Assembly (NCBI GenBank): GCA_019722365.1
Contig: JADFUC010002234.1
Location: 1 to 64,000, forward strand
DNA: 64,000 bases
Direction: 5' to 3'
Source of the DNA: Lithospermum erythrorhizon
Lineage: Eukaryota > Streptophyta > Magnoliopsida > Boraginales > Boraginaceae
Numbering within the stretch: the stretch's first letter is position 1; each line of letters opens with the position of its first letter. This document shows, piece after piece, positions 14,031 through 54,141 of this stretch. Under the pieces are notes generated by a model, which saw nothing but the letters and a program-made list of their open reading frames with translations, searched no databases and was not told where the DNA came from. The translations under genes were made by a program, and so were the position numbers.

Positions 14031-14207
14031 CCGCCGACAAGGCCAAATAAATACCAAAAGTGCCGACAAGGCCATTGTATAATAAAAGTGCCGACAAGGC
14101 CACAGAATACAAAAGTGCCGACAAGGCCATAAATACAAAAGTGCCGACAAGGCCACAGAATACAGTGCCGACAAGGCCACAAAATTCAAAAGTGCCGACA
14201 AGGCCAC
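14031..14207. repeat. GCCGACAAGGCC tandem repeat
   Basis: Six to seven copies of a unit of roughly 25-28 bp, GTGCCGACAAGGCCA followed by an A-rich half. It also occurs at 9170-9350 in the other LTR. It makes a repetitive ORF (MPTRP...) that is not a gene. Confidence 0.8.
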
Positions 14208-26158: not shown

Positions 26159-26234
26159 TCACTGCTTGCTTGCCTGCTCAGAGTTTGATCCAGGAAACTT
26201 CTCGTTAAGATTGTATGGCCTTGCATTTGACAAT
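26159..26234 (-). CDS. JAZ: JAZ exon 7 (PY tail, stop)
   Basis: The acceptor is GAAATAG. One base completes the Arg codon left by exon 6, then 24 codons read [12 protein letters not shown] and end SEQASKQ-TGA. The PYNL pattern is the conserved X5PY end of the Jas region, which serves in nuclear localisation and MYC binding in the family. The phase fit is exact (76 nt). Confidence 0.87.
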
Positions 26235-29200
26235 CTATTTCAAAATGTAAGTCATCAAACTTGGCATCATAAACCGTAGGCAAATACTATCTCCCTTTCA
26301 ATTTATGTGGGAGCTTTAATAAATGAACTAAAATTACGTAACCTAACGATCGTTGAGTCTACATACATTAATCTTATTCAAATGATTTTCTCAAACATGT
26401 TGATAAATTAATTTATATTGTGCAGTATCTAATTGCATAAATCTGATATTTTGATGGAAACTCAAAACTAAGTGAATAAATTTTTGTTAAAAAGTAGATT
26501 AATTATTTAAGGGAATCAGTTTAATCAAAGTTGGTAGATAAACGTACCTATGCATGCGCTTCTCCAGAAATCTAGCTAGGGTCGCCTTTCGAGCCATTGC
26601 CAAGCCTGCAAGATAGTAGTCGGTTAGCAAACATATATGGGAAGAGAAGCCTTTCATAAATTAATCATAGAGAAGCATACAAGACGATTTATATTAATCG
26701 TTAAGACTAATTTTGACATATTATTTTTAAAGCGTAACCCATTTATTGACTGCAAGATGCTATATATTCTTTTGTTATTTATATTATTATATCACTAATA
26801 TATACTGCCTTTTATTTAAATTGATGAGTATAAGAAAAATCTGTACTCATTTTATTTGACGGTTTATATTTTCAATGCAACTTGCTTTCAATTTTAAAAA
26901 CATTCAACATCATTGCTTTTTATTTCATCGGCTGATAGTTTTATCTCTAAAAATAATAAAATAAATTAGCTTACTTAATGTTATATTTTTACGCATACGA
27001 TAAAGTAATTAGGACGGAGGAATCTAAAAAGCGTAAATAGCACTGCTGCTTTCTTTCCATTTTCACATTATTAATTACTAAATTCATACTTATCTAAAAA
27101 TCTAAAAGTTGGGAATCTTAATTTAATTAATTCATTTCTCCATTTTTTATTGACAGTTGTGATATCGACGCTTTTAACTTCGACTATCAATTATTCTTAA
27201 ACTATATGTTCCAAAAATTATAAGAAAATAATATTATAAACTATTTTCTCAAAGACAAATCTAATGATATAACTTTATATTTATTAAAATAATAAGTAAT
27301 TAAGTAATTACCCACAAAGCTTCACATCGATATACTAAAACGCTAAATAAAAACGGAGATATTATTAAGATTCATCATACTTCTATACTCGCATATATAT
27401 AAAGATTATCAATCAAAGGAATCATCAACACATACATCATATACATTCCTAAGTATATATATTTTATTATTATCGCAAGATCCCACTTTTTAATTAATTT
27501 TATTTATTTATCTCCAATGCATGCTTGATTTCATTCAAATGTATTTATCAATAATATAATTATTTTTTCTCAATTTTACAATACGTATAACTTTCAAGCG
27601 ATTCAATCATGCTAATATGCCTCTACCAAATACATATAGCCTAATCAGACTGCCCTGACCTTCTATAAGAGGTCACAGTTCAAATCCCATAAAGAGGATT
27701 ATATCCTCGTCAATTTGTTGGAGCGATTTCCCACAAACAAAAATTCATCGCTAATTGTAACATCGAATACTTAATGTTGTGAGGCCTTCCAATGACTTAG
27801 AAGTCCCGGGTTCGATTCTCATCGTAAGTGGGCACAAGTGTTTAAAAAATCATCGCTTAATTAACAAAAAAATTCACAAGAATGCGCCTCATGTATTATA
27901 TATTATTAATTTATTATTATCGCTTTTCATCAATACGATTTTTCTCATCATATGTCATCATTAATCTTTAATAATTTGTTTTAATTAAATAAAAAATATA
28001 TTTTATGTACAACTATTATTATTATTATTATAATAGGTGTTAGTTAAATTATCATATATTTTTTTGTAATTTTTATTATTATTATTATTATTACTATTAT
28101 TATTATTATTATGTAGAACTATTGTTATTATTATTATAATAGGAATTAGTTAAATAATCATATGATTTGAGTAGTAGAGTTATAATTATTATTATTAGTA
28201 TTAATATTATTATGTAATTTCATGCGTATAATGATTATATATTAGATCCAAAAAATTTAAATTACACTTTTTAAATCATATCAATTTAATCGACATTGTA
28301 AGCAATTAATTCGACGATATAATATTACCCATCAATTGGCTAATACATTTAGTCGCAGCGACATCAAATTGTTAAAGTAAAATTTGTATCTCTCTATGAC
28401 ATCTCAAATTTTCTCAGATAAGATCTATCTATGACATCGATTACTGTAATTTTTATATTATATTTAAAGTATTATTGTTATCAAATTATCAATTCAAAAT
28501 AAAAATTTAATTAAAAAATTCAAAAGAGTGTAAAGTTTTACGCTTTTAGGAATGATTTCAATTAAACATAAAAAAGATATCAAATATTCGGTAAATCGAC
28601 ATATATCTGCATCGTGACGCTCTCCTTTTATTAGTTATCTCTTAAAAAATTAAAAAGTAAAATGAAGTACGTACCTCCTCTTGCAAACCATGGGGAAGGG
28701 GATGATTGTTTAGCCGGTAGCTCTGTGTTATTTGTACAATAATTTTCTTTAGGCAACAGCTCCAGAGTTCTGTTTGAGTTTGTGGTCACACTAGCACTAG
28801 CGGATCCAGCAATACGCATAATTAGCTCAACCTAGATGTTCAATCATTGAATACAGATTAGGAATTCCGGCTTTGGATCATTTCTTACAACTAGAAATAT
28901 ATTACTTACGTTGCATGTAATCATTATTTTTGGTTAATTATTTTCTTGGTTAATCAAATTTATTTTTAATAGTTTATAAATATTTTTCTTTTTCTTAGTT
29001 CAATTTTGAAGTTCTAATTTTGATTAGTAAGATGATAATAGATTTCCTATATATATAGTACCAATATGATTAGTATTGTTAGTGGGCCGGGTAATCCGAA
29101 CCGGCTGACCTCGACCCGATGTAATCCTATCCGTTAATCCATCCGTTAAGGTAATGCATCGTTTCAAGTATTTTATTTGCCTCGAGATCTGGTCGGATCC

Positions 29201-31278
29201 GCATCACAACCGGTACAACCGCAACATATACAATCCCCCCTCCTCCCCCATCCCCTTTATTTTCACACACATACCACGCAGCCCCGCCCCTAATCCCGCC
29301 TCCTCCAAAGAATTTCTCCTCCTCCCTTTATTTTCACGGCCCTCCCCCCTCCTCTTCATTTCTTCTTCTATGAACCCGCCTACACCCTCCTCCTCCTCCT
29401 CCTTTTTCCATTCTTACTTACGAAAGCGAGAAACCCATGTTCCCCTCTAATGCTTTTTGTTCATTATTCTACATTGATGATTTTGATTTGTATTGAGAAT
29501 TCGATTTTGTTTTCTATGATGAATTCGATTTTGATTTGTATTGAGAATCAATGAATGCTAAATTTTTTTATTTTTACATGTTTTGATTTGAGGATTTAGG
29601 GTTCTTGATTTGTGTTTTTTTGGTTTTTTGTATTGAGAATGATTTTGCTTTTCATATTGACTCATTTCGAACGGCATCCATTCGTTACTATCGACCGTTC
29701 CGTCCAAAAATATCTCGATAAAGGCTTTGACCGGGTCGTTGGAACCGTATCCTACTAGTCCTCGTCTCCGTCTCAGCATCCTAATCGAATCGGACCGGTA
29801 ATAGCACTAAATATGATCCATTTATACATTTATGTGTGTATAATTAATAATGTTATATCATGGGAAAAGTATTAACACTTTAATTATAAAAAGAAAAAAT
29901 TTGGAATTCAAATTTTTACAAAATAAATAATTAAAATACATTAATGTGAACGTATTCATGCTTTTTATCGATTTTGTTATTTTTTAATAAACAAGAATCC
30001 AAATATAGATATTTTTATCATTGTTTCTAATTTTATGCTTGTGTTATATTTCATCTTATTGTTGGATACTTCTTTTTTTGCATTTTTAAGTCCTTTTCTA
30101 TATTTTAGTTTGGCTTTATATCATATTCACTTGTTTCCACCATTCTTGGAGAATCATTAATGCCTTTCTTAGACATATTGTCATTCTTGAAATAAATTAT
30201 ATACCCTTATAAATAAGTTTGGCTTCATACTTCATATTGTCAAGTTGTCAGATACATTTATCTAGTTTTGTTCTTCCAAATTTGGATGACGCTATAATAT
30301 GCAGAATGACATACGCTTGTATTTGAGAGTTTGACATACCTTTCCTTATCGACATATTATATCACTTGATTTCTAATATATGTTGTTGATATTACATCAC
30401 TTGATTTCTAATATATGTTGTTGATATTACTTCAAATATTACAAGTGAATATAAGTGTCTCCTTGGCTAGCCTATAGCTTAAGACAATATATGGATATTA
30501 ATTGACTCAATTATTTATTTCTTGTGCAATGCATAAAATAAATAAAATTATGGGTATAATATGAAATGTTATATGATCTAACTTATGTTTGTAAATACCC
30601 ACAAAATACCGATTAAGAGTTTTAACCAATTATAACTAACATGAAACACACCATTTTGTTAATATATGTGTAGTCATATAATATACTTTTCAAAATAATT
30701 TATGAAGTTCGTTAGCATATTTTTGATATTTCTTTTTCTTATTCCATTCGAAATAAAGTATTTTATTGCGGAAAATATTCATACACAAATATTTAAATTT
30801 ACTACTTTAACTTATCATAGCAATAACAATAAGTATATAATATTTTTATAGGATTAAAGATTTTTGAAGTTCATTATTTTATATGTTATAATTATAAATG
30901 TCTATATACATTTATTAAGATTTTGTTTGAATGTTGGAGAAAAATAATTTTGTATATGCTTGTTGATTATCTAGAAACAATCGCATTATCACTCTAACCA
31001 TTCTAGACTACACTAAAAAAAGTTCCTTTATCGTGATTCTATAGTTAATTTATCAATTTCTTTTTATTTTTGAACTAATTTTTAAACTAATTCATTTCAT
31101 TTTGTTTTCAATGTAATGTAACAAAATATATTCAAATTAATTATTTTCAAACAACCATTGTTCACACACCAATAATATCATTAGTTGCATTTATGTATTG
31201 AAATAACAATATGTCTATATATGAATGAATTATGGATTAAGAAACAAACATAATTATAAAGATACTACAAAGATAAAG

Positions 31279-31357
<79 letters not shown>

Positions 31358-34300
31358 TGCGTGTGTGTGTATAATTATAGTGTCAAAAGAAGAAACACAT
31401 GTAAACAATATATGTACCTTCTTAAACTCAAACAAGACCTCTTCTTGTCAATCTCAAGTTTTGTATCATATGAATGAATGTCAATTTTTATTTCATATCA
31501 ATTTCAAGTTCTATATCATATGCACAAATATCAACGATATCATTAGATCCGTTATTACAATCAAATACGCAACATATCAAATTATACATATGATAGTAAA
31601 AAATAAATATAATTTAGAAAAATAATCAATTAAAAAAATTATCTTTAATAATGAATAGGTGGGTACCTTTTTCTTTCACCTTATGCAAAACTTCGATTGC
31701 CTATAATTCTTCGTAATCTCGAGATTTATTTATATATATTGTATATGCACAAAGATGTAAGGAGTAAAAGAAGAAATATAATATAGAAACTTATTTTATA
31801 TGTCAGATGTTTAAAAAGTAAGATGGCGCAACTAAATGTATTAACCTTATTAAAAAAAAATTTAATTTTTTCGTCGGCGCGGACTCGGGATAGTATAATT
31901 AATTTCGATGATAATATTAATTGTGAATTTTTTTAATGTAATTACATTTATAATTTAGTAGTTTTTGCCATGGAATATTTTATCTTTGAATCGTTCAAGG
32001 GAGATTTAAATACGATAAGCGGAGAATTAACCGAAACCGAACGGGACTCGAATTTTTTTAAAATATCTAGTCATGCTTATCTTACACATCATCATTATCA
32101 AACAACTTCATCATCATCTTTTTCATGCTATGGCCGAAATATTCACCCTCCCCATTAAAAAATTTCTTTTTCCATTTCTCTCTTCAATTGTCGCTCAAAC
32201 TCAAGATCTATTGTAATATCGTTTCCCATCATTCTCTCTTCGAAGTTAAGGTAAGAAATTTAAGTCTTTCGAGATATTTCTTGGCTTCGATGATAGTTGA
32301 CTTTTAGTTGACTTTTTCCATAATCAATTTTATGATAAATCTTAGTTGGTTATGGTTCTCCGACGATATGTCATTTAATTCGTGATTTAGAGATCGCCGA
32401 GACGCATGTTTTAGTCAATTTTTGGTGCTTTGGCCGACTTTTTATGCGAATATTTTTATGTTAATTTAAATGCGTAGTGAGGTTATATTTGACATTATTA
32501 TAGTTGTTATGATGTTAAATTGGTGATTTAAAATTGATTAAAGGCGCAGGTTTAAAAAGTAAATTCCAAGTTGAGCTATTATTTATATTTCTGAAAGATG
32601 TATTGTTAATTATGGACTTGATGATTAGTTAATGACTTATGTTTCCATTTGTACGAGAAAGCCGATAAGATGGAATTTAGCGGGAATCGACAAGGTGGTC
32701 CGGCGGGATTATAATTCGATAGCTTATCCGGGTCAAAAGTTGGGATCGTTGTATAGTTCTCCCAAGAGTTATATGTATCTTCCGTAATCCGCCGGTATAG
32801 CAATAGGTCTTGATTATAATTTCGGGTGTCATGAAGTTGATCGCGAAAGTGGCGCTACCTTGATTGTTTCGCGGTTGCTCATGGGTAGCTAACAGAGCGA
32901 AGATTTATCTCACGCTACATTTACGTACTTACTTTAAATTGTGTGAACACGTTATTGTGATATGATTATGAGAATGGTATACATGTTATGATATGATTAC
33001 GTGGAGAATGATATACATGTCATTGTGTTATGATTACGCCGAGAACGATATACATGTAATTTGTTATGATTATGTGATTATATTCAGGCCAAGCATTGCT
33101 TCTCTGAGGTAGTGAATAACTCCCAACTTATATTTCGATTTCGTACTTGTTTTCACTTACGATTTCCATACTATTTCTGGCCATAGATTTCGTGACCTCG
33201 TGGGCGATTGTGTTTCACCATTACCGCGATGTTTTAATTGCTACGATATCATTTTGAAAGAAGAGTTTGCTATCGGTATTGTAGCTTATCTATGACTGAG
33301 ACTCGAGTATCAAAGCAATTCTATACTGGATGCAGGATTAAAGTGACTCTCCTTCCTCATGATACGTGACGCCATTGGCCCCATACTACTCAGAGGCATA
33401 GCGGTTTGGCCTTATACTTCGGTATAAGAGCGGTAACACTCTTTTGACGGCTTTGCCGCCAAGGTGATTATCAAGGTGGCCCTATACTACCAGATAGCTG
33501 CTTCGATTTGGCCTTTATACTTCTGTGATAAGAAATGACAGTCTTTTCGATCACTTTCACATACAGATTGCCGGGACAGGGCCCCATACTACGACATAAA
33601 TACAAGGGTGTGCCTTATACTTAGCTCTTATAAGAGCGGTGTGCCTTATACTTAGTGTATAAGAATGTGCGCCTATATTTCTAGCTGTATAAGAGCCACA
33701 GGCCTCTTTGTATTTAACAGATGAATACATTGCCTTTATACTTTGTGTATAAGTGGCAATTTTATACTTTGTGTATAAGCTGCTGTTTGGCCTTATACTC
33801 ATGATAGTTGAGGTGATTGTTGATTAGTCCATTCCCCGCAGTAGACTTATCAAGTATACAAGACAGTGACGGTATACCGTGGGGGATAATGAGATGTGAG
33901 GTTCGATGACTACGCTTAAATATGTCAGCCTATCGATTTCTTTCCTCGAATTGCTATTTAACCTTCTATTATATCTGAATGACATGTCCGAGATTTCCTC
34001 GAATTATGTTGTATCACCTTTTAGGTAGTCCCGATATATGTATTATTCATATTTGACTATTATATTATTACTGACCTGCCCGTATATGTTTCACCCCGCA
34101 GCTTCACTAAGCCTTCGCGCTTACACCTTTATCGGGCGATTTCATTCAGGTCGTGCTGACAGCGGCATTGAAAGCAAGAGGTTGTTTGAGAGTTGTCTCG
34201 AGTGGCTAAAAGATCGGGGCTATGTGGTGGTGATCCTCACAACCGATTTTGACGTGTTGTCAACCTGCTTTTGATTTTTGTATTTACTCTTTTGAAACTC

Positions 34301-37300
34301 TTATCCTCATTTACCGCCGTCATTTTGTATTCCTGGACATGCGATGTGATTATCTTTGTAGCCTTGCCGCATTACTTTATTTTGGGATATTGTGTATATA
34401 TTTATGGGGTTGGTCGCTTCACACAAATTTACTTGGATTTATAAATTTTAAAAACCTGCTTTGACGTGAAACTTTAATCGCGATCACATTTTGGCTTAAA
34501 GAAATTGTTTTAAACCGAAGCCGCCCATCGGCTCGTGACTCTTTGTTCGGATTTTAATTAATTTCACCCGCCACGACCCATGTCAAGTTATTACTAAAAC
34601 CATGACTTTGCATTATGTACCTTAATGGTAAAATTATTGAGTAAGTGAGTTACCAGAACTTTAAAGAGTGCCCAAGAGATAAAACGAAATAAATTGACTT
34701 ACAGAACTTTACAATAAAATGAAATACCGAGAGCTTTCTAACTCTAAGAGGGGGGGTTACTTTTGAATTAAAGTAATTAACTGAAGTTATTAGGCAATTT
34801 AATTAAAATTTTACTTAAATCAATTAATTTTTTAATTATTCAAGTCTTATTATCATTAGTATTCTCAGAATTATTCTATTTGTGTGTATATCTGAATAAA
34901 AACTTTAAGAAACATCTTACTTTATCTACAATTTTATAAGGTACTAGTAAAATGACTTTATAAGGCAATTAGACAGTACATAGCTATTTATGCTCAAATG
35001 ATTTATATAATAAATAAAAGAATTAACTATTTACGAAATTTATAAATTATTTTTTTGATTTGTATTATAATTTATTTATCTACAGTTATATGATCGCTAT
35101 AATTTTTGATAATATAATATTAATAGTAGATTTAAAAGTTTTGTTACCATACTACTTTTCATTTTCGCTATTTAATAAAAGAATGCACATTATGTAATTT
35201 AGATTATTATTAGAAAATAACACTTTTCTTTTTTCAAAAAATACACCTTACGTTATTTTTATTTATTTGTTGGGAACATCGCTCAATTGATTAGTAGTAT
35301 AAATTATTCATAGTTATACTATTCAATTTTATTATATTTATTCATTTTAACATATTTTAATTGACGATTGATCAATAATATTTACACGATAATTAATAAT
35401 AGCGAAGACCTTTTACAAAATTTTCTCTAATTTTAACACACTCAAAACAAATAAACAAAGTACATTACATTGGGATATCCTTCTTCGAATTTAAAATACT
35501 CAAACGAATTATATCAAAATCAATTGAATAAAGATGAGACATACGCCTTATAAAAATAATATCTTATGCTATAATTCTTTTTAAAAGTTAAACCTCAATA
35601 TATAGTATATACGTGATTAATATTACTGACATGAAAACTTTAAAATTATGAGTACAACAATAACTTTAATATAAAAGGTCACAAGAAGTTACCCAACAAT
35701 ACTTAGAGGCATCGACAGACATCGAACGCTTATAAATAAATTGATTATATACATATAATATACATATTCATATTCATATATGTATCTTTTATACCATAAA
35801 GATATTACTTAATAATATACTCTTATTTAATTTTTACTACTAAATCAATATTAAATAAATGTAAGAATTAAGTTTTTAATTTCTTTTATATATCAATTCA
35901 ACTCTAATTAATTATTGTATATAAGGCTTATGTATAACGATATTTTTATTTAAGCATAAAAACTGCATGTTATATATATATATATTATAATAATGAAATT
36001 ATATTTGAAATAAAATATCACTTTTTTTGTTCCCTCCATACTAAATTATTGTCATGCTTCGATTTAAGGTCTCGAATTGACAAACTTTACTCCTTCATCA
36101 TCGATAAACATAATGTTGATTTGAATAAAATTTAATGCCAATATTAAATTATATTAAAAATATTATTATTTGATCATTTTTACCAAATATTATACAACAA
36201 AAATAAAATATTTGAATTTAACATTTAATTTGTGAAAAATACAAATTAAAACCTTAATAATCTATCGGGGATGACGGAGTATTAGCTATAACTTGATGCT
36301 TTTATTTCAATGGTTGAATGTAATACAATGTATCACATAATAAATTAAATATATTATTTAATAGTAAGTTTTGGATTAGAATTTTTTTTCAATTTATAAT
36401 TGAATAATTATCATAAAATTATAATAGATTTATGCAAAATTCTATAGTACATTTGTTTAATATCATAACAAATGTCATTTTCTTATTGTAAATTAATTTG
36501 AAAATTATAAACATGAAACTTGTTTGGGTATTCCATATGTCTCGAGAAAATTAAAAGATGACAATCATGAGCCATGGCTGACTACGGTTGAACACCAAAT
36601 ATATGCAAGTGTACCATAAAAAAATGACAGAAGTTGAAATATGAAGACATGATTTTTTATGGTAAAAGCCAAGGTCGTTAAATGATCCCCGTCATTCACT
36701 ATTAAATCGAAAGTTTTCATCCACTTCTTGTTTCGTTAGTTCTACCGTTAATCTGGTCACGTGAGAGATGTATTTATTTTTAATCTTTTGCAAACAATTA
36801 AACTAGTAACCCGTCCCACACATCAACCTGCCCGAATAACTGCATAAACCCGTCACAAAAAACCCAACAGGTCTCGAAACCCACGGTTGCAAACCGACAC
36901 CTCGAAGTCCGCGACCCACTGGAATATCTAACCCACGCAATGCCTATCCTTTATGCAATCAAGTAGTGTATAGTTTTATACGTCATGCAGGCGCCCCCCG
37001 CACTCCAAGCAATTCCATCACCAATATGGGGAGTTTATCCGAGATGTACTGCATGCGCCCCAGAGGTCACCCCATACACAGCTGGCCCAAAGCAGCTGCC
37101 AGTAACTCAAGCAACAACGAGGCACGACCCTGATTCGCCAGTCAATTACTGCTTTCTCAGATCAAACCCACGCCTCGATGCTATACAAGACCGTAGCGGC
37201 GAATTCATATTCGCTGACAAGGCTGTAATTAGTATATAGTTTTATGGTACAATGTCAGCTGCAACAATTTTTAGTTATCTAGTACAATATATTTACTAGG

Positions 37301-40300: not shown

Positions 40301-43300
40301 ATGGCAGCTAATAATTTTGTAGGTATTAACAATAACTCTCAAGGTGACAGAGAACTTATCTTTCTAAAGAAAGACGTAAGCTTCATATAGGTGAAGGGCG
40401 CATGTTTCAACATTGCTGGAAGAGGAAGAACTTATATTAAAAGCGTTTTGGAAACAAAATGAGATCATGTGAGTATGAAGAGGTAATTCTCGACATGTGC
40501 GTGGTCATTGCAAGAGATTGGCCACATGAAAAGGCATCGCAAAGCTAACCATTTATGCTCATGTTGTATCGAAAATTATTCATGCTTTGGTTTTATCTTT
40601 GAATGTTTCTTACTGATTCCTGGGATAATAGATTCTCGAGGATCCTTTCATACCTACACGACAAAGATGTAATTAAAGGAATTATGCTGAATTACGGAGT
40701 CGGGTGTCATTCAGTGGATATTCTGACTGAAAGAAAGGTACCGAAGTTGGGATTAACTTCGTTGGAGTTCAGGATGACGAATTCGGAAGAGCTGCCGCAG
40801 ATGGGCGCTTTAAAGACAGTTGGATCCTAAAACGCCTTCAACCTGGGAGATTGTTAGGAATTTGAAGAAATTTCCCAAGACAAATAATCGTTAATCAGCC
40901 TACAATCGCAGGGGCCGACATGTTCAAAATATCAGATAGCAATCGCCCCCTGATCGGGTTGGCTGAGGGGCCGACCTGACACTTAAAGTTGAGGGTTTTG
41001 AGTGCCTGACGCTCGAGCCTAAGAAAGCCTAATTTGATATAGCCATAGCATATAATATAATATTGTATTTAATCTTATTTTATCACACAAATAGAGAATA
41101 TTCATCCTGTATCAATATTGTGCCTTAAGATTATCAGTTAACATGCTTTTGTTCTGTAGGCTCAGGGCTGAGATTTTCATATAAAAAAATACTCAACATA
41201 GATTATAGCTAGCCAGAGTACTAGAATTCATCTTCCAGTTATTAGTCGATTCTCGAGCAAAGAACAACAGTGACGTATCTTCACATCAGTTTATAACCCA
41301 TGAATCGCTTTCATGGCCTGCTTAATTGTTTTAATTTCAAATTCTTGTCGCTTTTATCGATTATTGAAATTCCGCAGGATGGTGTCTTAAATCCTAATAT
41401 ATAACTTAAACGATTTGACTATATCCTTAGATGTAACAAAATAATGTCAAGCGAGAGTGTTAAAACTACTTAAAAGTCTTCCAAAAAACTATTATAGGGA
41501 TTAGTTAAAAAGAGTGTTAGACAAAGTGTTATTAAAAGCTCCATACTCTTGGATTAGTAGAATACCTTTTCAGGTGAAATGTTTCGGAAAACATGAACAT
41601 TGCCGGAGTATAACATGCTTAATGATTCTAGCTGTTCTGGTTGTAAATATTTGTTCCTGTAGAAATTACAACAGACAATTAGTTTAGGTTAAAATAAGCA
41701 AAAAAAAAAAAATAGTAAAATGTTAACAAGAACACGCCAAATCTGTTTGATTAACATATCATATCTGTTTGATTAACATATCATATCTGTTTGATTAACA
41801 AATAAGAGTTAAAATAAAATGACAAGATTAAATCATTAAACGAAATCCGTCTACAGAGTATATTAGAGAGTCAAATATACTACTCTCTTCATTTCAATTT
41901 AACTAAGAAAGTTATTTCAATAAATAATCAACTTTTTTTGAAATAACAATGAATTCTTTTAAATTGTTATTTTATCAAAAGAGTAAAACATAACAATTAT
42001 ATACTACATTATCTGTTAAAACATTTCACATTGATTGATTATCATAATAAGATTAATTTAGATGAATCAAAGTTAACTAATTTTAAAGGGCAAATGGCTT
42101 GAGACATCACCCAAGTTTCATTTATTTACCATTTAGATCACTTATAGTCATTTTCAACCCAAATCGACACTAAGTTTACAATGATCTACTCATGACTTCA
42201 AATAATTTCCTCAAGTTTTTCATCCATTTTTGTCACCAGTAGCGAGACGCAAACACTACATTTAATCGATTTCTCAAATCAGGATGCTTAATTCGAATCC
42301 ATTCTAAAATTGTGTAAAAGTTAAGCACTTCTAATTTTTCTTTCTAATTAATATTTTTATTTTTCTCTCACGGATACTTATCACAAAAGTTAACATTCTA
42401 ATATAATACAAAAATTAGAATTAAATAATGTTCATAGAGAGATATAAATAAAATTTAATTAATTTAATGCCCACTAAATATATCGATGAATCGATCATCA
42501 ATATAAGATCATCGAATTATTTCCTTTATGTTGGTTAATTGGTATGATTTAAAAGTATAATTTATTTCAGGGATTCCCTAATATATAAAAATTCATATAC
42601 GCATGAAATTAAATAATAATATTAATAATTCTACTCAAGCATATGGGTTATTTAACTATTATAATAATAACAATATTTAGTTCTACATAATAATAATAAT
42701 AATTTTAAAAATTATGTTTTACTATCAAACACCTATTATAATGAATAACAACATTTCCATATAAAAATATTTGTATTATTTTAATTCAATTCAATTATTA
42801 AAGATTAAAAATTACGTGATGATTTGGTGAAACCATATCGATGAAATGAGTAATAAATTAATATATAATGTAATGTGCATATTATTGTGAATCAATCACG
42901 AAAAGATATACGCAAAATTTCAGCAAAATAATTGTGTTATTTCAATGCATACCTTTGAATCATTAAACATGCAATCGATAGTATAAAACAAAGCTTAATT
43001 AAAAAACGGATGCATTTATAATGAAAGTGATATATACGCTAAATGTGATGCGATGTGATCGCCTTCAAATCATATATATCTGCTGATGATTCCTTTCAAT
43101 CGGAGAATGATATGCAGTATAGCATGTTAATACTTACTACTACTTCCATTTTTTTATTGACGCTTTCATATCGGTTAAACTTCACCATTGGCTACTATTA
43201 TTATTTATTATTTTAATAAATATAAAAGTTTATATCAATAGATTCATCTTTAAAATAATTTCATAATATTATTTTCTTATATTTTTTGAACATATAGTTT

Positions 43301-46300: not shown

Positions 46301-48865
46301 AAATGCGACTTAAAGATTCGGGCCTCACTCGGTTTTGATCTAAGCTTAAAGAATGTATTAATTTCTAGCCTTGGTAAGACAAACGTAAAATTAAGAGTTC
46401 TGTCATATGTAGACGATTAAGTATGAAGCCGAGTATCTCAACCTTGCTCATGACACCGGACATTAGGATAGGCCTCAGCTAGCCGCTATTTCTCGCCTCT
46501 GATCTAGCCATGTGGACCGAATATTCAAGATATTTCCTATATCCTGAACTTGATTGATCAAACCCGGTATTTTCAGTTGTTCATACAAGATTTATGAATA
46601 ATCATGCGTTTTAACTTATTCCTCAATACTGCCGTTTTGAGAGATCTCAGACGTGATTTTGTTTGACTTGAAAATTATTAAGTGCCATAATACTTGATTT
46701 CAGCACCTAGTTGGCTACATGGAGATGTTTTTCACCACCAAAGCTTGCAGGTTTTGGCTGGTGGTTTAAAAGATTTTACAAGGTAATTTAAAGTCGCCCT
46801 CCATTTTCAAACGCTTTTTGAGTATTTTTCATGTGAATGTCGATGATATTTTCGAAATAAGCGGAGGCTATTTATAAAGCCTTTCAATACTTGTTTTTGA
46901 TCGGCGATTTAATTTCGCGTAGATCATTTATCTTAACCGTCAATTCTCAAGCAAAGATCCGAACTGGTTTAAAATTTGGAGTAATTACTTTTCCTCCAAA
47001 GAAAAGAAAAGGGCGCCTTATTCTGGGCTGTTAGAGGCTGCCCATCTTTTCTAGGTCAAGCACATTTTGATATCAATTTTGACCTTTTGGCAAAATTCTT
47101 TTATTTTGATCCCCATAAATTACGGGAGTCTCCATTTCTAACCAATGAACTTTTGAAGCTTCGACAGAGCCCCTGTGTGGACGCATTTTAACTCAATAAA
47201 AATGCTGGATTTCAGCCCTAAACTCAAATTCACGAACATTAATTCGGGTTATTTTCCGAAACCCTTGTTCGCATGGTAGCTTCTTACACAAATTTAGGTC
47301 GATCAGTTAACCCTAGCCACGTGTCATTTTTTAGTGGGTCACTTTTAATTAATTCGATTAAGTAATTTTAATTATTATTTAATAATTTTTCACTGTCTAC
47401 AAACCCCATGTTTTGTAAGAATAGAGAAGTAACAGGAGACTGGCCTTGTAATTGAAGAATCTTCGATACAACCCTTTCCTGGAAAAGTTGTAACCAAGTT
47501 GAAGTTGTTCAATTCAATTGGATTGATCACACTTGTTGAACTACTTGGAGTTATATTGGTGCTAGGAGAAGTCCAACGGTTCTATAAGAAAAACAAATTC
47601 AAACAGAGCCTGTTGTAAGTTGAAGAATATATGTTCCAAATGATGTAGATCCAAAATAATTTATTACATACCAATTATATAATGCAGTCTGCAATTTTTA
47701 ATATACACATTACAAAAATAACTATGGTATTACAAAATCTTTTTATAATATAATGACGTGTTTTATTGTATCAAATATTGATATAGAATTGAAGTAAATG
47801 ATTTCTTAGTGTTGTAAGTGAACGTTTGATTATGAGATGGGGAAATGCATAAAAAATTGTTGAAGTTAAGACCTTGTCAATGGAGAATGAGAATAAGAAT
47901 GAAAAAAGTTAAGTCCGAAAAATGTCACAAAAGATGACAATTTTAACCTTGCCAAGAGATAGTGTTGGAGTGCTGGAACCAGAAGGAAATGGATAATAAG
48001 TACCATCTTCTCTCGTGGGAGCCTCAGAACTCAGAAACTGAGATGGAGTAAGAGGATGTGGCCGTATAACTTTGGAAGCTGCACATTCAACATCTTAAAG
48101 TGACCAAACATACAATCTGGTGTTTGGCTTGTGTTGTTATATGTCGTCTAAAAAAATCTCTAGATATAGTTTAGTTTTGATAAAGACAAAATTACTTTTC
48201 ATATTTTTCTTAACACAATAAAAAATAAATACAATCAAAACAATTAATTATTTAATTCCGTCGAAATTAATTATCTTTTTCCGCTTCAATATTATTTACT
48301 CCAATATTTGTAGGATACAAATATTAAAAATAAATTTAAAACAGACAACTTTCACAATAAAATCAACAACATTAAACATTCAATCAAGGCTTGTACAAAT
48401 TACACTATTACAATATTTATGAATTTCGTTAGTGTCTCTCACACTATTACAATGTAATAAACTATAAAATTTATTTAGTTTGTGCAAGGTTTGGAGACAT
48501 AAATTTAAATGGATCAGTAAGTAGGGATATGTTATATTTATCCATGATGTATCTTCTTTTACACTGGTGCTATAAGCACATCTCAAACACTGTAATAATA
48601 GATGTGAAATTACTATTTTAATGCCCCTATTTATAAGTACAATATTTGAAGAAGTTTTATTTGAGGTAAATAATCGATGCTTGCTTTGATGACTATTTGA
48701 TGTGCTTTTGTCCCCTCTGTTATAAGAGATTTAGAGTTGTAATATCTATCTCATTGTTTAATTTAATTAGTTATCTTTTTTTTGAAGTAATTTCGTTTTA
48801 GTTGATGTATATATATTTTCTAATTCAGTATATTTGCAGGTATTGAAGCTTGTGTATTCCAAAAC

Positions 48866-48929
<64 letters not shown>

Positions 48930-51900
48930 ACAAGTAATTTAGAATAAATACATTCTGATAATTTGCAGAGCTACATTCTCTTTCTTGGGCTTGCATTATT
49001 ACTCTGAAAGTTATTGTTTTCTATATATTATTTATATCACTACTTGCAGGTGATATTTACGTAAAAAGGAAATTGATGTCTCTTTGATCGTTACGTCATC
49101 ATGCTTTTATTACGTATAAAACTAATAGTCTATATTTTGTTATTATTTGTTCCACTATTTTTCTCTGCATGTAATCTTGTTGTTATAATCCCCAACACTT
49201 CCTCAATGACTGCGTTCAGAACTTAACAACTCCAAAGTACGAAACGCCTCTGTCTTTATGCTTTGCAAAATACAAAACTATTGTTCTTCGGTTCTAGAGT
49301 GCATAATTCCACAATTTGTTCTTTACCTGTTCTCGAATGAAATGATATTTAATGTTTATATGCTTGCTTCGACTGTGTGATACTAGATTTTTTGCGAGTG
49401 AAATAGCAGATTTGTTATCTACATAAATCGTAATTGGACATTCCTTTGCTAGATTTAACTCATTTAATATGTAGCCTAACGACATAGCTTGACATGTGCA
49501 TCTTTATTCTTTGCATATATTGACTTGTATTGAGGAAGCGCATTTGCTTTCGCTTCTTTGTGTGCAGAAATACTGAGCCAATGTGAAATGCATATCCGGA
49601 GGTACTTTTCGTCATCAAGATACCACCCATGTCCATACACAGGTAGTCAACTAATTTTGAATCTTGAGAATGAGTGTAAATAAATCTATATTCAAGTGTA
49701 TCTTTGATGTATCTTAAAATTCTTTTTCTTTGTTAACAAAATGATGCTTTGCTTAGGTTTTTCCATGTATGCGCTTACGGAGTCCCATTGCGTCGTAATA
49801 TGCGGGCGGTGAAAGTTAGATGCAACTTCAACCGGACTTTTAGTGTGGGATTTACCGACTCTTTCATTGAATGGTTCTTCGCTTCGTTTCACCTTCTTGG
49901 CATGTCACCGGCTTGCATTCTTCGTTAAACTTGCTTAAAATTTATTTTTTATATTTTGTCTGCGACACAAAGTTAGCTTGACTTTGTATGACTTGACTCG
50001 AAAGTAAGACATTGACCTATATACGTCATTTCAAATTCATCGATCATTAGTTTCTTAAACTGTTGAACATACGGGATGTTAAGTGAAAATCATACTCACA
50101 TATAAGCACCGTCGCTATATTTAGCACGTTGTTTATCTTAGAGAGCATGCTCATATGTGGACTTTCTCAAAACCAACTTCTGAGGTAACAAATGCACCCA
50201 CCGCATCTTCAGGCTCTGGGCACACTCTTCGCCTGGCACACTTTGTGCTCTTGACGCTTTTTGATATATCAGGGTTCTTTCAGTAAACTGTATGAGAGAT
50301 GGCATTCCAAAGAATCTTGCTCAATTTGATAGATCTTCCATTGGTTTTGATTGCTATAAGTCTTATGGTGTCTACTCACTCTTTGGGGCCAATGACTTCA
50401 TCATGTCGGTTTATACTTGTCTTGACCTTTAACTCTTAACGCTTTGCCTTGTGTTTTTTCTACTTGTGCTTGGTTTTGTCTTTGTCTTTGTATGCCAGCC
50501 TCGTGCATTATTTCTTTTGGAATTAAGCTCCCAGAGTGTCATTTCTTTTAATTGAACCAATTCAACCAAATCCATAGCCTTTTCCGTTTTCTTTTCAACA
50601 ACTGCTATGTTTGTTAGATGCATTACGCCATAAAACAAAATAAAATTTTGTACAGGATTTGTCAAATAAATTTCATCCCAACCTCACCATGTTCACTTGG
50701 TGCTCCCCCACACAATTCTGCTTATTGTTACCTTCATGTTGTCTCACAGTGTTATTGGTGATGATTGAGGGAGTTTGTTGATTTAGGCGTGTGGAGGGTT
50801 AGATCGTCGTTTCCACCGTCTACTGTGTTGGTGTCGGCATTTTAAATGCATCATCATTGAAGAATAGACTCGTCATACTAACAACTACAAATCTAGGTAG
50901 TATTTCAATTCAACATCCTACAAGTAATGCTTGGTGAGTGGTTATATAAACCTGTGTACTAACTTGCTTTTTGTCGTATCCGATGAAGATACATTTTGCT
51001 CGCCGTCGTCGAGCTTCTTTCTTTTTTGATCGGGCGCATGTGCATACCTGATACATCTGAAAAGTGCGAGATGTTCAACGGATGGTTTTACTACCGGCTC
51101 CATGCTTGCGTTGAACCTGCATCGGACAGCAGTCTGACAAATAGGCGGCACATAACACGGCTTTAGCGAAGCTTTCTTAGCGTGTGCTTTCGCTTTACAT
51201 ACTTAACATCGTATCAAAATTGTCTGGTCTTTCTTCTGCGGCGCCGTTATATTTGTGGAGTATATGGCGTTGTCAGCGATGAATATTCGTACTATTTGCA
51301 AAAATTATTAAAGAAATTGAATTGTATTCACCGTCTATCGGATACAGTATCTTTAGATTCTGTCCCTTTTGTTTTCGGCTACTACTTTAAAACTCGCTTA
51401 GAAATTTTTAAAGAGCTTTTGTTTTCTTTCGATATGTATACCCAATTTTTCTACTATAATATCGATAAAAGTTAAGTAATACATGTTTCTTGGTAATGAG
51501 GCGTCAAATGGTAGCTATATGCTGTATGAACTATTTCCAGGTCCCAATTTTCCATGAGGGAAAACTTTGACGATGTTGTTTTTCTTTGACACATGTATCA
51601 CATAGATGTTCTGGTTCATTAATCATTGGTAGTCCATTCACCATATTTTTCTTTGATAATAATTTGAATCCGCTGAAGCCAAGATGACCAAATCTTAAAT
51701 GCCATAACCACGAGTCATTTTTAATGACCGACTTCAAACAATGTTGAATTTCAGTTTTCATGTCAGTATGAAAAGTGACCTTGGTCATATCAGAGCTTTT
51801 GTAATTAATTCTGAGCTTGATTTGCTTATTGATGAGGTTCTCTTAATATTTATGGTATGCCGTTTCTCAGAAGTTGTCGAGGTAATGATGTTGCTTTCTT

Positions 51901-54141
51901 GATGCGGAGGTATATAATAAACATCATTTATAATTTCTTTTCTCCATTATTGGAAACTGATGTTATCTTGCATTTTTCTTGTCTTTAGACTTGCCGATGA
52001 ATCACCCAAAGTAACTTGCTCACATTCGTCGTTTAGTTCAACTTTGTGAACAGATCATTTCGACCACGCGTGATTACTTGTCGGCTGCCGTATATTTTGT
52101 GTTACTCTTCATTTCGTTATGTTGGGAAATGGCGGATCGACATCTTCATTAAATGCAGTGTTGCAAAATTATTTGGTTCTTCCACTTTGGGTGTTGATCG
52201 ATACTCGTGGTGAAATGACCATATTTATTCTGATTATAACATTGAAGTTAGGCATCAACTTCATTGTATATAATCACTTTTTCTTCCATTGACCTCAAAA
52301 TTTTGGCCTTGACCCAAGCGGTTCGATAACATACATTTTTACGGCCTGTTGAAAGTTTTGCTCCCGTCTCTTGCTTTCGATAGCCGCCTGACCGCTCTTG
52401 CAAGCATATAACTATTCTTGCCTTGATTTTCATTAATGGACACTTTCTTTCGGCGCCTTTTCTAAATGGTTTGTGTCCATCTTTGGTTCATCAGATTGTT
52501 CGCGAGCTTAGGTGAACCCTGAAACTCAACGATTGAAATTGTTGACAAGTCTTTGGCCAGAAGAAACACCATTGGCCTTGGCGTGCGTCATTTGTTCCGT
52601 CAAAGATCAAAACTTGTCAATGGCCGAAGCACCATGGCCTTGGCGTCATCAATTGTTCTGTTCTTTTAAATCTTGTTTATTAAAGAGTTGTCAAGCAGTG
52701 ACATATTCTAAATATTCTCGAACTTTTATTTTTAGAATTTTGAATTATTACCAAGTACTTGAAGTCGTACCTTCTTCACTTTTTGACTCATGTTCTTTGT
52801 AAAATCTCAGCATTTCTTGGATGTTTACACTTTCTGATATTTTCAGTTGGACTAAATGACATGAAAAAATTGCAAATAATGCCTTCTTGTCCTTTTGTGG
52901 GAATCTTTTGATTACTTGTTTTTTGCGGCATTATAGGCGGTGAATTTTGTAGCTAAAGTATATGTCTTCAATATGTCGGATATCTTGAAAGGCAGTAGAA
53001 CAGCAGGTTTGCTCGTTCCCGTAATTTGTGACGTGTTTAGATTTGTGGTTGAATGCCATTTTATTACCATAGAATGGAGCCTGGCTCTATCTGGCTTTTA
53101 GGCTGTGTATTCCAAAATATATATATATATATATATTATTACAAGCAATTTAGAATAAATACAGTCTATTAGCGGGCGGCTCTATTCTGCCTGAGGAGAG
53201 ACTTGTATTATTATATCTGAAAAGTTATTGTTTTCTATATTGTTGCTCAGCTACGTCACGAGGGAGATATTTATAGTGAAGAAAATCCATTGTCTAATGC
53301 ATTTACGATGCATAAACTATTATCTTTTATTGCAATATAAAACTAATGATCATATTTTATTATTATTTTGTTATATTTTTATACGCATCGCGATGCGCGG
53401 TTGTAAATTCTAACATATAGTGACCTCTACAGTTTATGAATGAATAACAATGATATAAAAAAAATCCAAAAAGCTCAACACCAAAGCCTGACCAACTGCC
53501 AAATTACTTAGGAAAGAAAGTGGGAAATATTATTAAGATTTAAAAAACTATATAAAGTTAAATAATCATAATTTGTAATAAGTTTGACTGAAAAACAAAA
53601 GTTTGAGTGAAGAAAGTCCCTCAACCATACATTCCAATTAGTTGTTTGAAAAAAGACATATGAAGGTCCAATTGAGTGATAAGAGAATCATGAATGTATA
53701 TTGCAGAATCTGGTGTGATACAAGTGCCACTAAGTAAATATATATAAACATCAACAAGTGAATATTCAAGTTTGAATTGAATTAAATCGAATCAAACCTT
53801 GGACAGACTATGTGTCAATTGAATTGCACTTGATTTTCTAAGTTTGAGCTTGAGCTGTACCAAATCAAACAAGACTCGCGTTTTTCTAGAGGAGTCATAC
53901 ATTTCAGGATTCGATATGGTTCAATTCATTTCATGAGTAGAAGTAATCATATACATGAAGAAATGAAAATTAATATGATATTACAAGTAGTACGTACTAA
54001 GCAATTTATTTTTCTTTCACAATAAATATAATAAAAAAATTACAAGAAATTCTTACCTGATTCGGAACCCTGTTGAGATGAGTAGTTTATTTGGTTCAAG
54101 CCAAGAAAATCCCTCTCCATTTTTGAACTGTCCTGAACCAT
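26159..54141 (-). CDS. JAZ: JAZ/TIFY jasmonate repressor, split gene of about seven exons
   Basis: JAZ proteins are nuclear repressors that bind MYC-type transcription factors and, when jasmonoyl-isoleucine is present, are bound by COI1 and degraded. The TIFY domain recruits NINJA/TOPLESS. Seen here on the minus strand: N-terminal MERDFLGL (typical of JAZ3/4/9), Ser/Thr/Pro-rich middle, a TIFY domain with diverged core SMLYSG followed by [14 protein letters not shown], a Jas motif [19 protein letters not shown] and a tail containing NARPYNL before a TGA stop at 26159-26161. Exons: 54057-54141, 47948-48093, about 47473-47581, 41566-41656, 28675-28831, 26548-26605, 26159-26234. Splice sites are GT-AG and phases agree (0/1/0, then 0/1/2/stop) except at the exon 3-4 junction. 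Predicted product is about 233 residues with one workable junction. All large introns are filled with transposons. The family call is from motif recognition; activity is not established. Confidence 0.85.
26235..26547 (-). other. Conserved Jas intron
   Basis: This 313 bp GT-AG intron splits the Jas motif from its PY tail at the position conserved in many JAZ genes. If retained, translation continues 15 codons (starting [10 protein letters not shown]) to a TAA, giving a protein without the PY tail. AT-rich, no repeat seen. Confidence 0.7.
26548..26605 (-). CDS. JAZ: JAZ exon 6 (Jas motif)
   Basis: This 58 nt exon lies between acceptor TTGCAG and donor CATAG then GTACGT. It encodes [18 protein letters not shown] plus the start of an Arg codon. 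The helix [13 protein letters not shown] is the COI1- and MYC-contacting part of the Jas motif and is closest to the [13 protein letters not shown] of JAZ3/4/9. The degron loop that reads LPIAR in JAZ1 is LAMAR here. Confidence 0.9.
27065..28625 (+). repeat. Inverted repeat, left arm
   Basis: Its reverse complement matches 42235-43450. Landmarks in order: near 27185-27240 (CTTAAACTATATGTTC followed by AAGAAAATAATATTAT), near 27415 (AAAGGAATCATCA), near 27525 (GCATGCTTGATT), an ATT-rich part at 28010-28200, and near 28270 (CTTTTTAAATCATA). The arm is longer than its partner mainly because of the insertion at 27624-27880. Confidence 0.75.
27624..27880 (+). mobile_element. SINE-like insertion with target duplication
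   Basis: This 257 bp segment is present in the left inverted-repeat arm and absent from the right. It is bordered by near-identical AATATGCCTC (27614-27623) and AATGCGCCTC (27881-27890). It contains two RNA polymerase III B-box-like motifs (AGTTCAAATCCC near 27682; GGTTCGATTCTC near 27808) and an A-rich 3' end. No clear A-box was found, so the class is provisional. Confidence 0.5.
28675..28831 (-). CDS. JAZ: JAZ exon 5 (end of TIFY domain)
   Basis: The exon follows acceptor CATCTAG and reads VELIMRIAG, completing the TIFY domain from exon 4, then a Ser/Asn/Pro-rich linker ending [10 protein letters not shown]. It is 157 nt and ends in phase 1 at donor GGAG then GTACGT. Joined to exon 6 it reads [13 protein letters not shown] with no frame break. 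It lies 12.7 kb from exon 4. Confidence 0.82.
29085..29800. other. GC-richer segment of unknown origin in intron 4
   Basis: It contrasts with its AT-rich surroundings. It holds a CT-rich stretch (29230-29400, CCTCCTCCTCC), a short duplication of GATTTGTATTGAGAAT (29485 and 29535), and on the minus strand a 73-codon ORF (29558-29779) with no family match that I know. It could be a captured gene fragment or a decayed element. Confidence 0.35.
31280..31371. repeat. (AC)n(AT)n(GT)n microsatellite
   Basis: ACACACACAC, then about 30 AT units to 31352, then GTGTGTGTGT: a self-complementary composite tract able to form a hairpin. Confidence 0.9.
31937..34600 (+). mobile_element. Chromovirus-type solo LTR (diverged)
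   Basis: The segment corresponds in the opposite direction to the LTRs at 7980-15695: TTGACTTTTAGTTGACTTTTT near 32290, ATATACATGT-containing repeats near 32970-33060, and CTTATACTTCGGTATAAGAGCG units at 33410-33800. No internal region is attached. It starts near TGTAATTAC (31937) and the right end is not sharply defined. The small ORF at 34038-34274 lies in LTR sequence and is not a gene. Confidence 0.55.
34601..36963. other. AT-rich stretch, nothing recognised
   Basis: 2.4 kb of AT-rich sequence within JAZ intron 4, with no repeat, ORF or exon-like block that I can support. Confidence 0.4.
36964..37246. other. GC-rich block with direct-repeat edges
   Basis: A compositionally foreign block with an 84-codon open frame (36985-37239). 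Each side has a near-identical 17-mer: TAGTGTATAGTTTTATA (from 36964) and TAGTATATAGTTTTATG (from about 37230). The encoded sequence matches no family I know. It may be inserted filler DNA or a captured fragment. Confidence 0.4.
37430..38880. repeat. Diverged tandem array
   Basis: Seven to eight diverged units of roughly 130-200 bp. Each has TCGATTATTTAATAAACTCT, a short CCGACT...GGGATAGGGTG-like part, CTAAATTAATAATT, and TTTTTCGCTCATTTTTCATT then ATTTCTAT. Units begin near 37540, 37665, 37820, 38100, 38335, 38625 and 38835. TAAATTAATA motifs of this type occur in ends of some plant DNA transposons, but I cannot assign a family. Confidence 0.65.
39234..41405 (+). mobile_element. Short copia derivative C4 with two LTRs
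   Basis: Two direct copies (39234 to about 39783; 40852 to about 41405) share CACAAATA(A/G)A(A/G)AATATTCATCC, TTGAAGAAATTT and GTCTTAAATCCT. The right copy starts TGTTAGGAA after a purine-rich ACCTGGGAGAT. A methionine-tRNA-like primer site TGGTATCACGCTTGATCG follows the left copy at 39787. The interior is only about 1.07 kb, far shorter than a complete copia. Confidence 0.7.
39787..40851 (+). pseudogene. C4 internal remnant
   Basis: Small open stretches (39872-40114, 40603-40830) without a full domain. A zinc-knuckle-like IGHMKRH near 40520-40540 suggests residual gag. Protease, integrase and RT are missing, so this is an internally deleted, non-autonomous copy. Confidence 0.5.
41566..41656 (-). 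CDS. JAZ: JAZ exon 4 (TIFY core)
   Basis: The acceptor is TTTCTACAG and the donor is AAG then GTATTC. The frame reads [18 protein letters not shown], then [12 protein letters not shown], and continues in phase 0 into exon 5 as VELIMRIAG. This matches the TIFY domain pattern (core, then V-V-x-D-I-S-P-E-K-A-x-x-I-M-x-x-A-G). The core itself (41602-41619) is SMLYSG rather than TIF[FY]xG: only Tyr and Gly are kept. An alternative in-frame start is 41636. Confidence 0.82.
42235..43450 (-). repeat. Inverted repeat, right arm
   Basis: Reverse-complement partner of 27065-28625, with matching blocks in the same order (for example GAACATATAGTTTAAG near 43287, TGATGATTCCTTT near 43085, ATTATTATAATAATAACAA near 42657, and TATGATTTAAAAG near 42543). 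It lies in JAZ intron 3, upstream of exon 4, opposite in direction to the left arm in intron 5. Confidence 0.72.
43536..43717. repeat. Foldback (hairpin) repeat
   Basis: Two arms of about 80 bp are close reverse complements around a short loop near 43620: GATTATCAATTGAAAATTTC against GAAATTTTCAATTGATAATC-like sequence, and TCATCAAAATCA against TGATTTTGATGA. This is typical of a small MITE/foldback. Confidence 0.75.
43926..47401. mobile_element. Unclassified retroelement block abutting JAZ exon 3
   Basis: Markedly GC-richer than its surroundings, with imperfect internal repeats (GCTTATCCTCA at 45890-45995; AGCACCTTCG at 46115-46150) and frameshifted ORFs (45016-45276, 45284-45568, 45742-46116) that match no domain I can name. 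It ends GTCTACA at 47395-47401, directly against the exon. TGTAGAC at 46408 could be the matching LTR start, but flanking 5-mers differ. Left border not found. Confidence 0.4.
47473..47581 (-). CDS. JAZ: JAZ exon 3, 3' border uncertain
   Basis: The acceptor is TTTTTCTTATAG. The exon begins in phase 0 with [17 protein letters not shown] and stays open at least to the transposon junction at 47402. The end given uses donor GGAAAGG then GTTGTA (phase 1). That joins in frame to an internal acceptor CCAG at 41637 in exon 4, but not to the better acceptor at 41657, which needs phase 2. No phase-2 GT exists in this exon before the transposon begins, so either part of the exon lies beyond or within the inserted block, or an additional exon was missed. 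Confidence 0.55.
47948..48093 (-). CDS. JAZ: JAZ exon 2
   Basis: This 146 nt exon follows an acceptor reading CACTTTAAG and starts with two bases that complete the Asp codon begun in exon 1. It reads open for 48 codons ([16 protein letters not shown], then a Ser/Thr/Pro-rich stretch ending TPTLSLGK) and ends in phase 0 at donor AAG then GTTAAA. There is no domain, but the compositional bias and the exact phase fit to exon 1 support it. Confidence 0.72.
48094..48850. other. JAZ intron 1, distal part
   Basis: AT-rich intronic sequence between exon 2 and copia C5. The 68-codon ORF at 48380-48586 has no recognisable motif. Confidence 0.4.
48851..49197 (-). repeat. C5 3' LTR with (TA)n
   Basis: 347 bp, TGTGTATTCC at the left and CCCCAACA at the right. 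It includes about 60 bp of TA repeat (48866-48926), the reason it is longer than its partner. Confidence 0.75.
49294..50665 (-). pseudogene. C5 reverse transcriptase/RNase H, degenerate
   Basis: Positions 49294-49485 encode [18 protein letters not shown] and [17 protein letters not shown], the copia RNase H end. The RT upstream is too decayed for its active site to be found. The ORFs at 49692-49892 and 50429-50665 lie in this interval without clear motifs. Confidence 0.72.
50942..51151 (-). pseudogene. C5 integrase C-terminal fragment
   Basis: It reads [20 protein letters not shown] then [13 protein letters not shown], matching the copia pattern VFGCxAYxHVPDxKRxKLDxK followed by GYDxxSKxYRLY. 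Confidence 0.75.
51531..51788 (-). pseudogene. C5 pre-integrase domain
   Basis: It reads [40 protein letters not shown] and KQHRQSFP, a well-kept GAG pre-integrase domain with its His-His-Cys-Cys zinc ligands (H-x-x-H-type, CDTC). Confidence 0.85.
52200..52870 (-). pseudogene. C5 gag remnant
   Basis: A zinc-knuckle trace [12 protein letters not shown] lies near 52205-52245, with the second Cys replaced. Charged sequence at 52248-52433 fits the preceding linker. The N-terminal gag is frameshifted beyond reading. Confidence 0.5.
53104..53415 (-). repeat. C5 5' LTR
   Basis: 312 bp, aligned to 48851-49197 (ATTATTACAAGCAATTTAGA and AAAGTTATTGTTTTCTATAT shared). Many substitutions imply an old insertion. 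Confidence 0.75.
53416..54056. other. JAZ intron 1, proximal part
   Basis: AT-rich intron between C5 and the exon 1 donor. No repeat recognised. Confidence 0.4.
54057..54141 (-). CDS. JAZ: JAZ exon 1 (start, MERDFLGL)
   Basis: The first ATG is at 54141-54139; a second in-frame ATG at 54120-54118 opens MERDFLGL, the usual N-terminus of JAZ3/4/9-type proteins. The upstream ATG would add seven residues (MVQDSSK). Either start is possible; the inner one matches the family better. The exon is 85 nt from the outer ATG and ends in phase 1 at a canonical donor (TCAG then GTAAG). Confidence 0.8.

Follow-up and report, generated by a model that had tools for sequence, protein, structure and literature searches.

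Introduction

In JAZ proteins, the TIFY domain binds the co-repressor NINJA and partner JAZ proteins, and the Jas motif binds MYC-type factors, which keeps jasmonate genes off. JA-Ile together with COI1 binds the Jas motif as well, leading to destruction of the JAZ protein, and splicing at the Jas intron can give a form that resists this destruction. The TIFY family also includes ZML proteins, which have CCT and GATA domains, and PPD proteins, which carry a PPD domain N-terminally and lack PY in their Jas motif. According to the available part of one report, the Jas intron occurs in almost all Arabidopsis JAZ genes, where it splits the motif into 20 + 7 residues, and splicing at this intron produces stable dominant repressors (PMC7450174).

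The closest described proteins to the Lithospermum erythrorhizon JAZ protein predicted here are those of Solanaceae (named 'JAZ7 / JAZ7-like' in their sources) and Ipomoea (named 'TIFY 7-like', 'JAZ2' and 'TIFY 10B-like'), which share its tree clade and its Jas core type, MAR[KR]... Whereas these proteins carry TIFY or close variants of it, the L. erythrorhizon protein has SMLY, plus an M after FLEKR, and identity to them is at best 41% over 157 columns. The TIFY 6B / JAZ3-type proteins resemble it in a MERDFLGL or MERDFMGL start, a TIFY domain, and a Jas motif with PY; however, they are longer (about 270–440 aa among those fetched), and the L. erythrorhizon protein lies outside their branches.

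At the level of gene structure, the garlic genes AsJAZ16 and AsJAZ25 have intronic regions of >10 kb, as stated in the accessible text of PMC13210613, and are like the present gene in their long introns, a likeness of size between different species. The unusual size that an earlier note on this DNA had claimed for a JAZ gene is therefore remarkable but not without parallel. In plant genes that depend on IBM2/EDM2, introns contain heterochromatic transposons, and early polyadenylation occurs in the mutants (available parts of PMC10241880 and PMC7145194). These genes share long, transposon-bearing introns with the present gene, which is known here from its DNA and has a proven element in intron 1 only. 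A first literature search on JAZ genes, long introns, and transposons returned another gene family only.

Results

Seven minus-strand exons join into one JAZ/TIFY reading frame

The 64,000-nt stretch of L. erythrorhizon DNA analyzed here (the window) contains seven minus-strand exons of 58–157 nt, lying between 54141 and 26159, that join into 735 nt encoding one JAZ/TIFY protein of 244 aa (Table 1). The joined frame remains open for 244 codons up to a TGA stop, and codon phase is consistent at all six junctions. GT-AG signals flank five of the six introns, intron 3 having a GC donor (AAG/GCCAGT). The introns measure 5978, 366, 5788, 12,734, 2069, and 313 nt in gene order and sum to 27,248 of the 27,983 nt from start to stop (97%). 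A second in-frame ATG in exon 1, at 54120, opens MERDFLGL, the usual start among the relatives. Residues 201–220 of the Jas motif are encoded in exon 6 and residues 221–227 come from exon 7, giving a 20 + 7 split with PY at residues 226–227; retention of intron 6 would yield the first 20 Jas residues followed by 15 foreign ones and a stop. In the gap between exons 2 and 4, an open stretch obtained with a splice-signal filter (43038-42953) was rejected as unrelated; this wrong candidate arose because the filter required a GT donor, whereas the real exon 3 has a GC donor.

The open 244-codon frame, the agreeing phases, and the domains confirm the claim of the earlier note that seven minus-strand exons form a JAZ/TIFY gene. 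The exon ends it named (54057, 47948, 41566, 28675, and 26548) were all correct; a distance of 12,734 nt between exons 4 and 5 splits the TIFY domain, as it had said (12.7 kb); and the MERDFLGL start (at ATG 54120), the TIFY and Jas regions (both by Pfam), and PY are all present. Its exon size range of 58 to about 180 nt was right at the lower bound, the upper one being 157 nt. It had also described GT-AG sites and matching phases at all but one junction; the phases agree at all six, and the odd junction is presumably the GC donor of intron 3.

Table 1. Positions of the JAZ gene parts and associated features in the 64,000-nt window
Feature	Position	Strand	Profile positions (bits)	Remarks
G-box CACGTG	54248..54253			107 bases before the first ATG; 1 of 7 in the window
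Exon 1	54057..54141	-	1-15 (9.0)	First ATG 54141; donor TCAG/gtaagaat; identical in deposited Leryth_026980 (P0001); phase and donor fit
Intron 1	48079..54056	-		5978 nt; decayed Ty1/copia-type element, judged by its domains, on the gene's strand
Exon 2	47948..48078	-		Acceptor tgtgcag, donor CAAG/gttaaaat; identical in Leryth_026980 (P0001)
Exon 3	47445..47581	-		GC donor CAAG/gccagtct; located via Leryth_026980 (P0001), whose model includes it
Exon 4	41566..41656	-	110-144 (27.6)	First part of TIFY domain; identical in Leryth_026980 (P0001)
Intron 4	28832..41565	-		12,734 nt; interrupts the TIFY domain between exons 4 and 5
Last exon of deposited Leryth_026980 model	38965..39054	-		Acceptor ctagcag; 2511 nt past exon 4, inside intron 4
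Exon 5	28675..28831	-	144-186 (10.7)	Rest of TIFY domain and linker; in LIER_15406 (P0027) from an internal Met onward
Exon 6	26548..26605	-	192-220 (40.0)	20-residue Jas part; Pfam Jas 37.4 bits on the joined protein; in LIER_15406 (P0027)
Intron 6	26235..26547	-		313 nt; at the Jas intron position of the JAZ family
Exon 7	26159..26234	-	217-236 (7.3)	7-residue Jas end LSNARPY, short tail, TGA; in LIER_15406 (P0027) with another tail after PY

A homologue profile recovers the exons in gene order

Similarity searches (contributing 26 matches, one match, and the best 120 of 372 matches) gave 134 listed proteins. A profile built from 26 of these, none from Lithospermum, was run on every translated stretch of 15 aa or more in the six frames of the window. 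The five best matches all lay on the minus strand, following the gene from exon 1 through exons 4, 5, and 6 to exon 7 (Table 1), and the three other matches in the window each scored 4.5 bits or less. When the window was shuffled 20 times in two-base blocks, the top score per shuffled window lay between 0 and 9.4 bits. Exons 4 and 6 are clearly significant on their own and exon 5 only just, and exons 1 and 7 are not. The weight of the profile evidence lies in the order and the abutting positions of the matches, together with phase and the deposited proteins for the weak pieces. The profile runs on across intron 4 at a single position, both sides meeting at position 144. Exons 2 and 3 gave no match to the 26-protein profile in the six-frame search of the window and rest on the deposited Leryth_026980. 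No second copy of any JAZ exon was found in the window.

Two deposited proteins hold the halves of the gene apart

The best protein match was 'hypothetical protein Leryth_026980 [Lithospermum erythrorhizon]' (177 aa; P0001), which was reproduced letter for letter, GC donor included, from exons 1–4 plus 39054-38965. This protein has part of the TIFY domain and no Jas motif, and its last exon is either a genuine alternative end or a prediction error. When the last 96 residues of the predicted protein were used as the query, the only protein found with E ≤ 1 was the 99-aa 'hypothetical protein LIER_15406 [Lithospermum erythrorhizon]' (P0027), which starts at a Met within exon 5 and continues through exons 6 and 7 spliced as predicted. 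It differs from the window by two amino acids and has a different tail after PY. At 26159-26180 in exon 7, the two sequences differ, in a comparison by eye, by an apparent 4-base tandem unit just before the stop. This difference in a short tandem repeat fits the differing tails and reflects either an allele or a sequencing error, and the resulting frame difference falls beyond the last conserved motif (PY). No full-length L. erythrorhizon copy was present among the listed proteins (26 matches, one match, and the best 120 of 372).

In Pfam searches, Leryth_026980 alone had no Jas match and reached 14.6 bits for tify, below the cut-off of 27, and LIER_15406 alone scored 39.2 bits for Jas with no tify match. 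The joined 244-aa protein scored 29.4 bits for tify, a narrow pass of the cut-off of 27, and 37.4 bits for Jas (cut-off 22.1). The rise of the tify score from 14.6 bits in the N-terminal record to 29.4 bits, with Jas at 37.4 bits, supports the joining of the two halves. Domain-based surveys of the deposited proteins would miss this JAZ because the N-terminal record fails the tify cut-off and the C-terminal record is without TIFY. The prediction of the earlier note that gene finders would miss or fragment the gene is thus borne out by two public 'hypothetical protein' records.

Since ab initio tools rarely propose GC donors unaided, the GC donor in the deposited model suggests that exons 3 and 4 have transcript support. 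MAKER has a default limit of 10 kb for split evidence; if applied, this limit would explain why the model chose an exon 2511 nt on rather than crossing 12,734 nt. The window most probably comes from the assembly of Auber et al. 2020 (PMC7261806), which is presumably also the source of the Leryth tags. Its annotation combined MAKER2, Trinity evidence, SNAP, and BRAKER2, and the available part of that article gives an average gene of 3772 bp, so that the whole gene described here is 7.4 times this mean length. A literature search on the names Leryth_026980 and LIER_15406 found no paper; among the matches listed for literature with both 'Lithospermum erythrorhizon' and 'JAZ', neither term appeared in a title or abstract.

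The predicted protein groups with JAZ proteins on a long branch

A PDB sequence search with a 192-aa form lacking exon 3 returned TIFY 10A (8t2i_J) at 41.2 bits. The earlier note had called for placement in a JAZ tree, and a 51-row tree was built of the query plus 50 proteins from the list of 134, with no PPD or ZML rows. The query grouped with JAZ proteins on a long branch, in a clade of 22 rows (support 100/99) comprising Ipomoea, Solanaceae, and Lonicera proteins and P0002, P0004, P0028, and P0029; this clade adjoins the TIFY 6B/JAZ3-type proteins. Within it, the query grouped with the Ipomoea and Solanaceae rows (18 rows, 96/85). Its end branch was 1.35, compared with a median of 0.16 in the tree, and its exact place is unsure because of this length.

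Together, the Pfam tify and Jas matches, the PDB match to TIFY 10A, and the tree support a JAZ identity at the level of sequence. The predicted protein combines sequence features of JAZ membership: a tify domain, a Jas motif ending in PY, a Jas intron that divides the motif 20 + 7, and grouping with JAZ proteins in the tree. With E values of up to 10 allowed, the Pfam matches of the joined protein included neither CCT nor GATA, which speaks against ZML membership, and the presence of PY speaks against assignment to PPD. Compared with Ipomoea batatas P0006, the I. triloba isoform X2 (P0012) lacks six residues immediately past SPE(K); this gap would fit, indirectly, an exon edge at the place of intron 4.

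We then compared the conserved cores by string search in the 132 listed proteins outside Lithospermum, all of which were found by similarity to the query or its kin and are no random sample. A TIFY-type core was present in 131 of them (TIFY in 126, TVFY in two, and TMFF, TMFY, and TILY in one each), P0026 (111 aa) having none by this search. The core of the query is SMLY (within SMLYSG), which occurs in 0 of the 131 comparable proteins and is known from one assembly only. The residue after FLxKR is K in 130 and R in 2 of the 132 proteins and M in the query (FLEKRM). Because LIER_15406 likewise has M after FLEKR, this residue is unlikely to be an assembly error.

Introns and flanks

The gene region contains 70 segments that are 60 aa or longer, of which 20 were scanned against Pfam: nine from intron 1, five from intron 3, and six from intron 4. 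Retroelement domains above cut-off were found in two of the 20, both in intron 1: gag_pre-integrs at 51534-51842 (57.8 bits, cut-off 28.4) and SH3_retrovirus at 50945-51202 (27.8 bits, cut-off 27). The five segments of intron 3 gave no Pfam match above cut-off; the six of intron 4 gave none either, and repeat searches there yielded short repeats only. Matches to Spo0M, YkyB, YjcQ, LBR_tudor, and YscX, which are unrelated families and scored below cut-off, were taken as chance. The inverted repeats of introns 1 and 4 were almost all AT microsatellites (among 25 of 47 and 25 of 42 pairs, respectively), and Rfam at the gathering score and tRNA scans gave no match. The statement of the earlier note that the introns carry several retroelements is thus borne out in part, with retroelement domains confined to intron 1 among the segments scanned. 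Its description of a gene that transposon sequence hides is proven in intron 1 and in the gene's flanks, but not in the other segments scanned.

Intron 3 contains a higher-GC island at 44000-47000 (up to 47%) that is open on both strands in places. Inverted copies at 27185-27306 (intron 5) and 43193-43314 (intron 3), 87% identical over 126 columns, resemble two copies of a short non-coding element.

On the upstream side, 55111-56715 and 62389-63992 form a direct repeat pair that resembles the LTRs of an old element, with 78.6% identity across 1690 columns; the nearer repeat starts ~1 kb upstream of the first ATG, and two inner segments of the pair gave no Pfam match. A second long direct repeat pair, 80–82% identical and with 34-base tandem repeats inside, lies at 7988-10818 and 12709-15696. 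The stretch 10038-10236 resembles 55434-55235 in inverted orientation (77.7%), and because the 7988-15696 repeats resemble the inverted 55-kb repeat in this way, the gene may have members of one repeat family on either side. Copia-type remnants were seen on the minus strand at 16455-17567 and 3166-3681 (Pol_BBD 85.3, gag_pre-integrs 34, and Retrotran_gag_2 47.8 and 30.4 bits), and downstream of the gene, low-complexity CAACTATT-type tandem repeats extend for >1 kb at 22700-24070. The G-box before the first ATG is suggestive only as a candidate MYC2 site; with seven G-boxes in 64,000 bases, the chance that a given point lies within 150 bases of one is ~1.6% by arithmetic.

Discussion

The exon order, open frame, splice signals, joined tify and Jas domains, two half-records, and tree position lead us to conclude that this locus is probably one intact, divergent L. 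erythrorhizon JAZ repressor gene in which the introns have expanded until they fill 97% of the start-to-stop stretch. We infer that the cell splices across the 12.7-kb intron 4 and that the deposited models end at this intron because pipelines limit intron length. By analogy with the family, the TIFY domain of the predicted 244-aa protein would bind the co-repressor NINJA and partner JAZ proteins, and its Jas motif would mediate repression of MYC-type factors and degradation driven by JA-Ile and COI1. Splicing at intron 6, the Jas intron, could give a degradation-resistant form.

Several observations count against an intact gene. SMLY, FLEKRM, and the long branch could mean decay, and the frame difference between the window and LIER_15406 after PY and the lack of similarity of exons 2 and 3 to relatives weigh in the same direction. 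It is conceivable, if unlikely, that through intron growth and drift of TIFY and Jas a former JAZ gene has become a pseudogene or now yields fragments only: SMLY stands in place of TIFY, M stands where all 132 other proteins have K or R, the tree branch is long, two records differ by 4 bases near the stop, and the deposited N-terminal model stops within intron 4. Nevertheless, the frame is open across seven exons with usable splice boundaries throughout, Jas at 37.4 bits is far over its cut-off, and the frame difference is located after the last conserved motif.

An assembly error, in which a wrong contig brought together or spread the exons of one or two JAZ genes, is very improbable. According to the available parts of the respective articles, the size of the source assembly was disputed by another group (PMC8435551), and 46% of the assembly was without short-read support, which its authors attributed to the library (PMC7261806). 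However, order, strand, and phase are right for all seven exons, and the window has no second JAZ exon copy. Least credible of all is the deposited picture of two distinct genes, Leryth_026980 (short and N-terminal) and LIER_15406 (Jas only): the public annotation lists the halves separately, but their boundary lies inside one domain, they continue each other in phase and profile position, LIER_15406 starts at a Met inside exon 5, and aligned full-length relatives have both domains in one protein.

Under the reading of one intact gene, the deposited truncated form could be a product of early ending, as in the IBM2/EDM2-dependent genes. We put forward, as a speculative and rather doubtful proposal, that intron 4 acts as a switch: ending inside it would give the 177-aa form, read-through would give the jasmonate-degradable repressor, and the chromatin of the intron would help to set jasmonate sensitivity. 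The 177-aa form (exons 1–4 plus 39054-38965) would keep part of the TIFY domain and be without the Jas degron. If this were true, the chromatin state of intron 4 would perhaps also affect shikonin output.

Alkannin/shikonin is induced by methyl jasmonate, as described in the available part of PMC9554848. In the same part, a co-expression table for L. officinale gives five JAZ genes by Leryth number, Leryth_026980 not among them; as the table covers only LePGT1-co-expressed genes, this absence is no proof of oversight. Jasmonate governs shikonin, the medicinal pigment of red gromwell, and JAZ is the jasmonate repressor; the gene described here adds a new and divergent member to the JAZ family, one that split annotation has concealed from domain-based surveys. 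It illustrates how a single 12.7-kb intron can hide a short regulatory gene, and the locus offers a setting for studying the effect of very long introns on a fast hormone feedback loop, which they might delay or gate.
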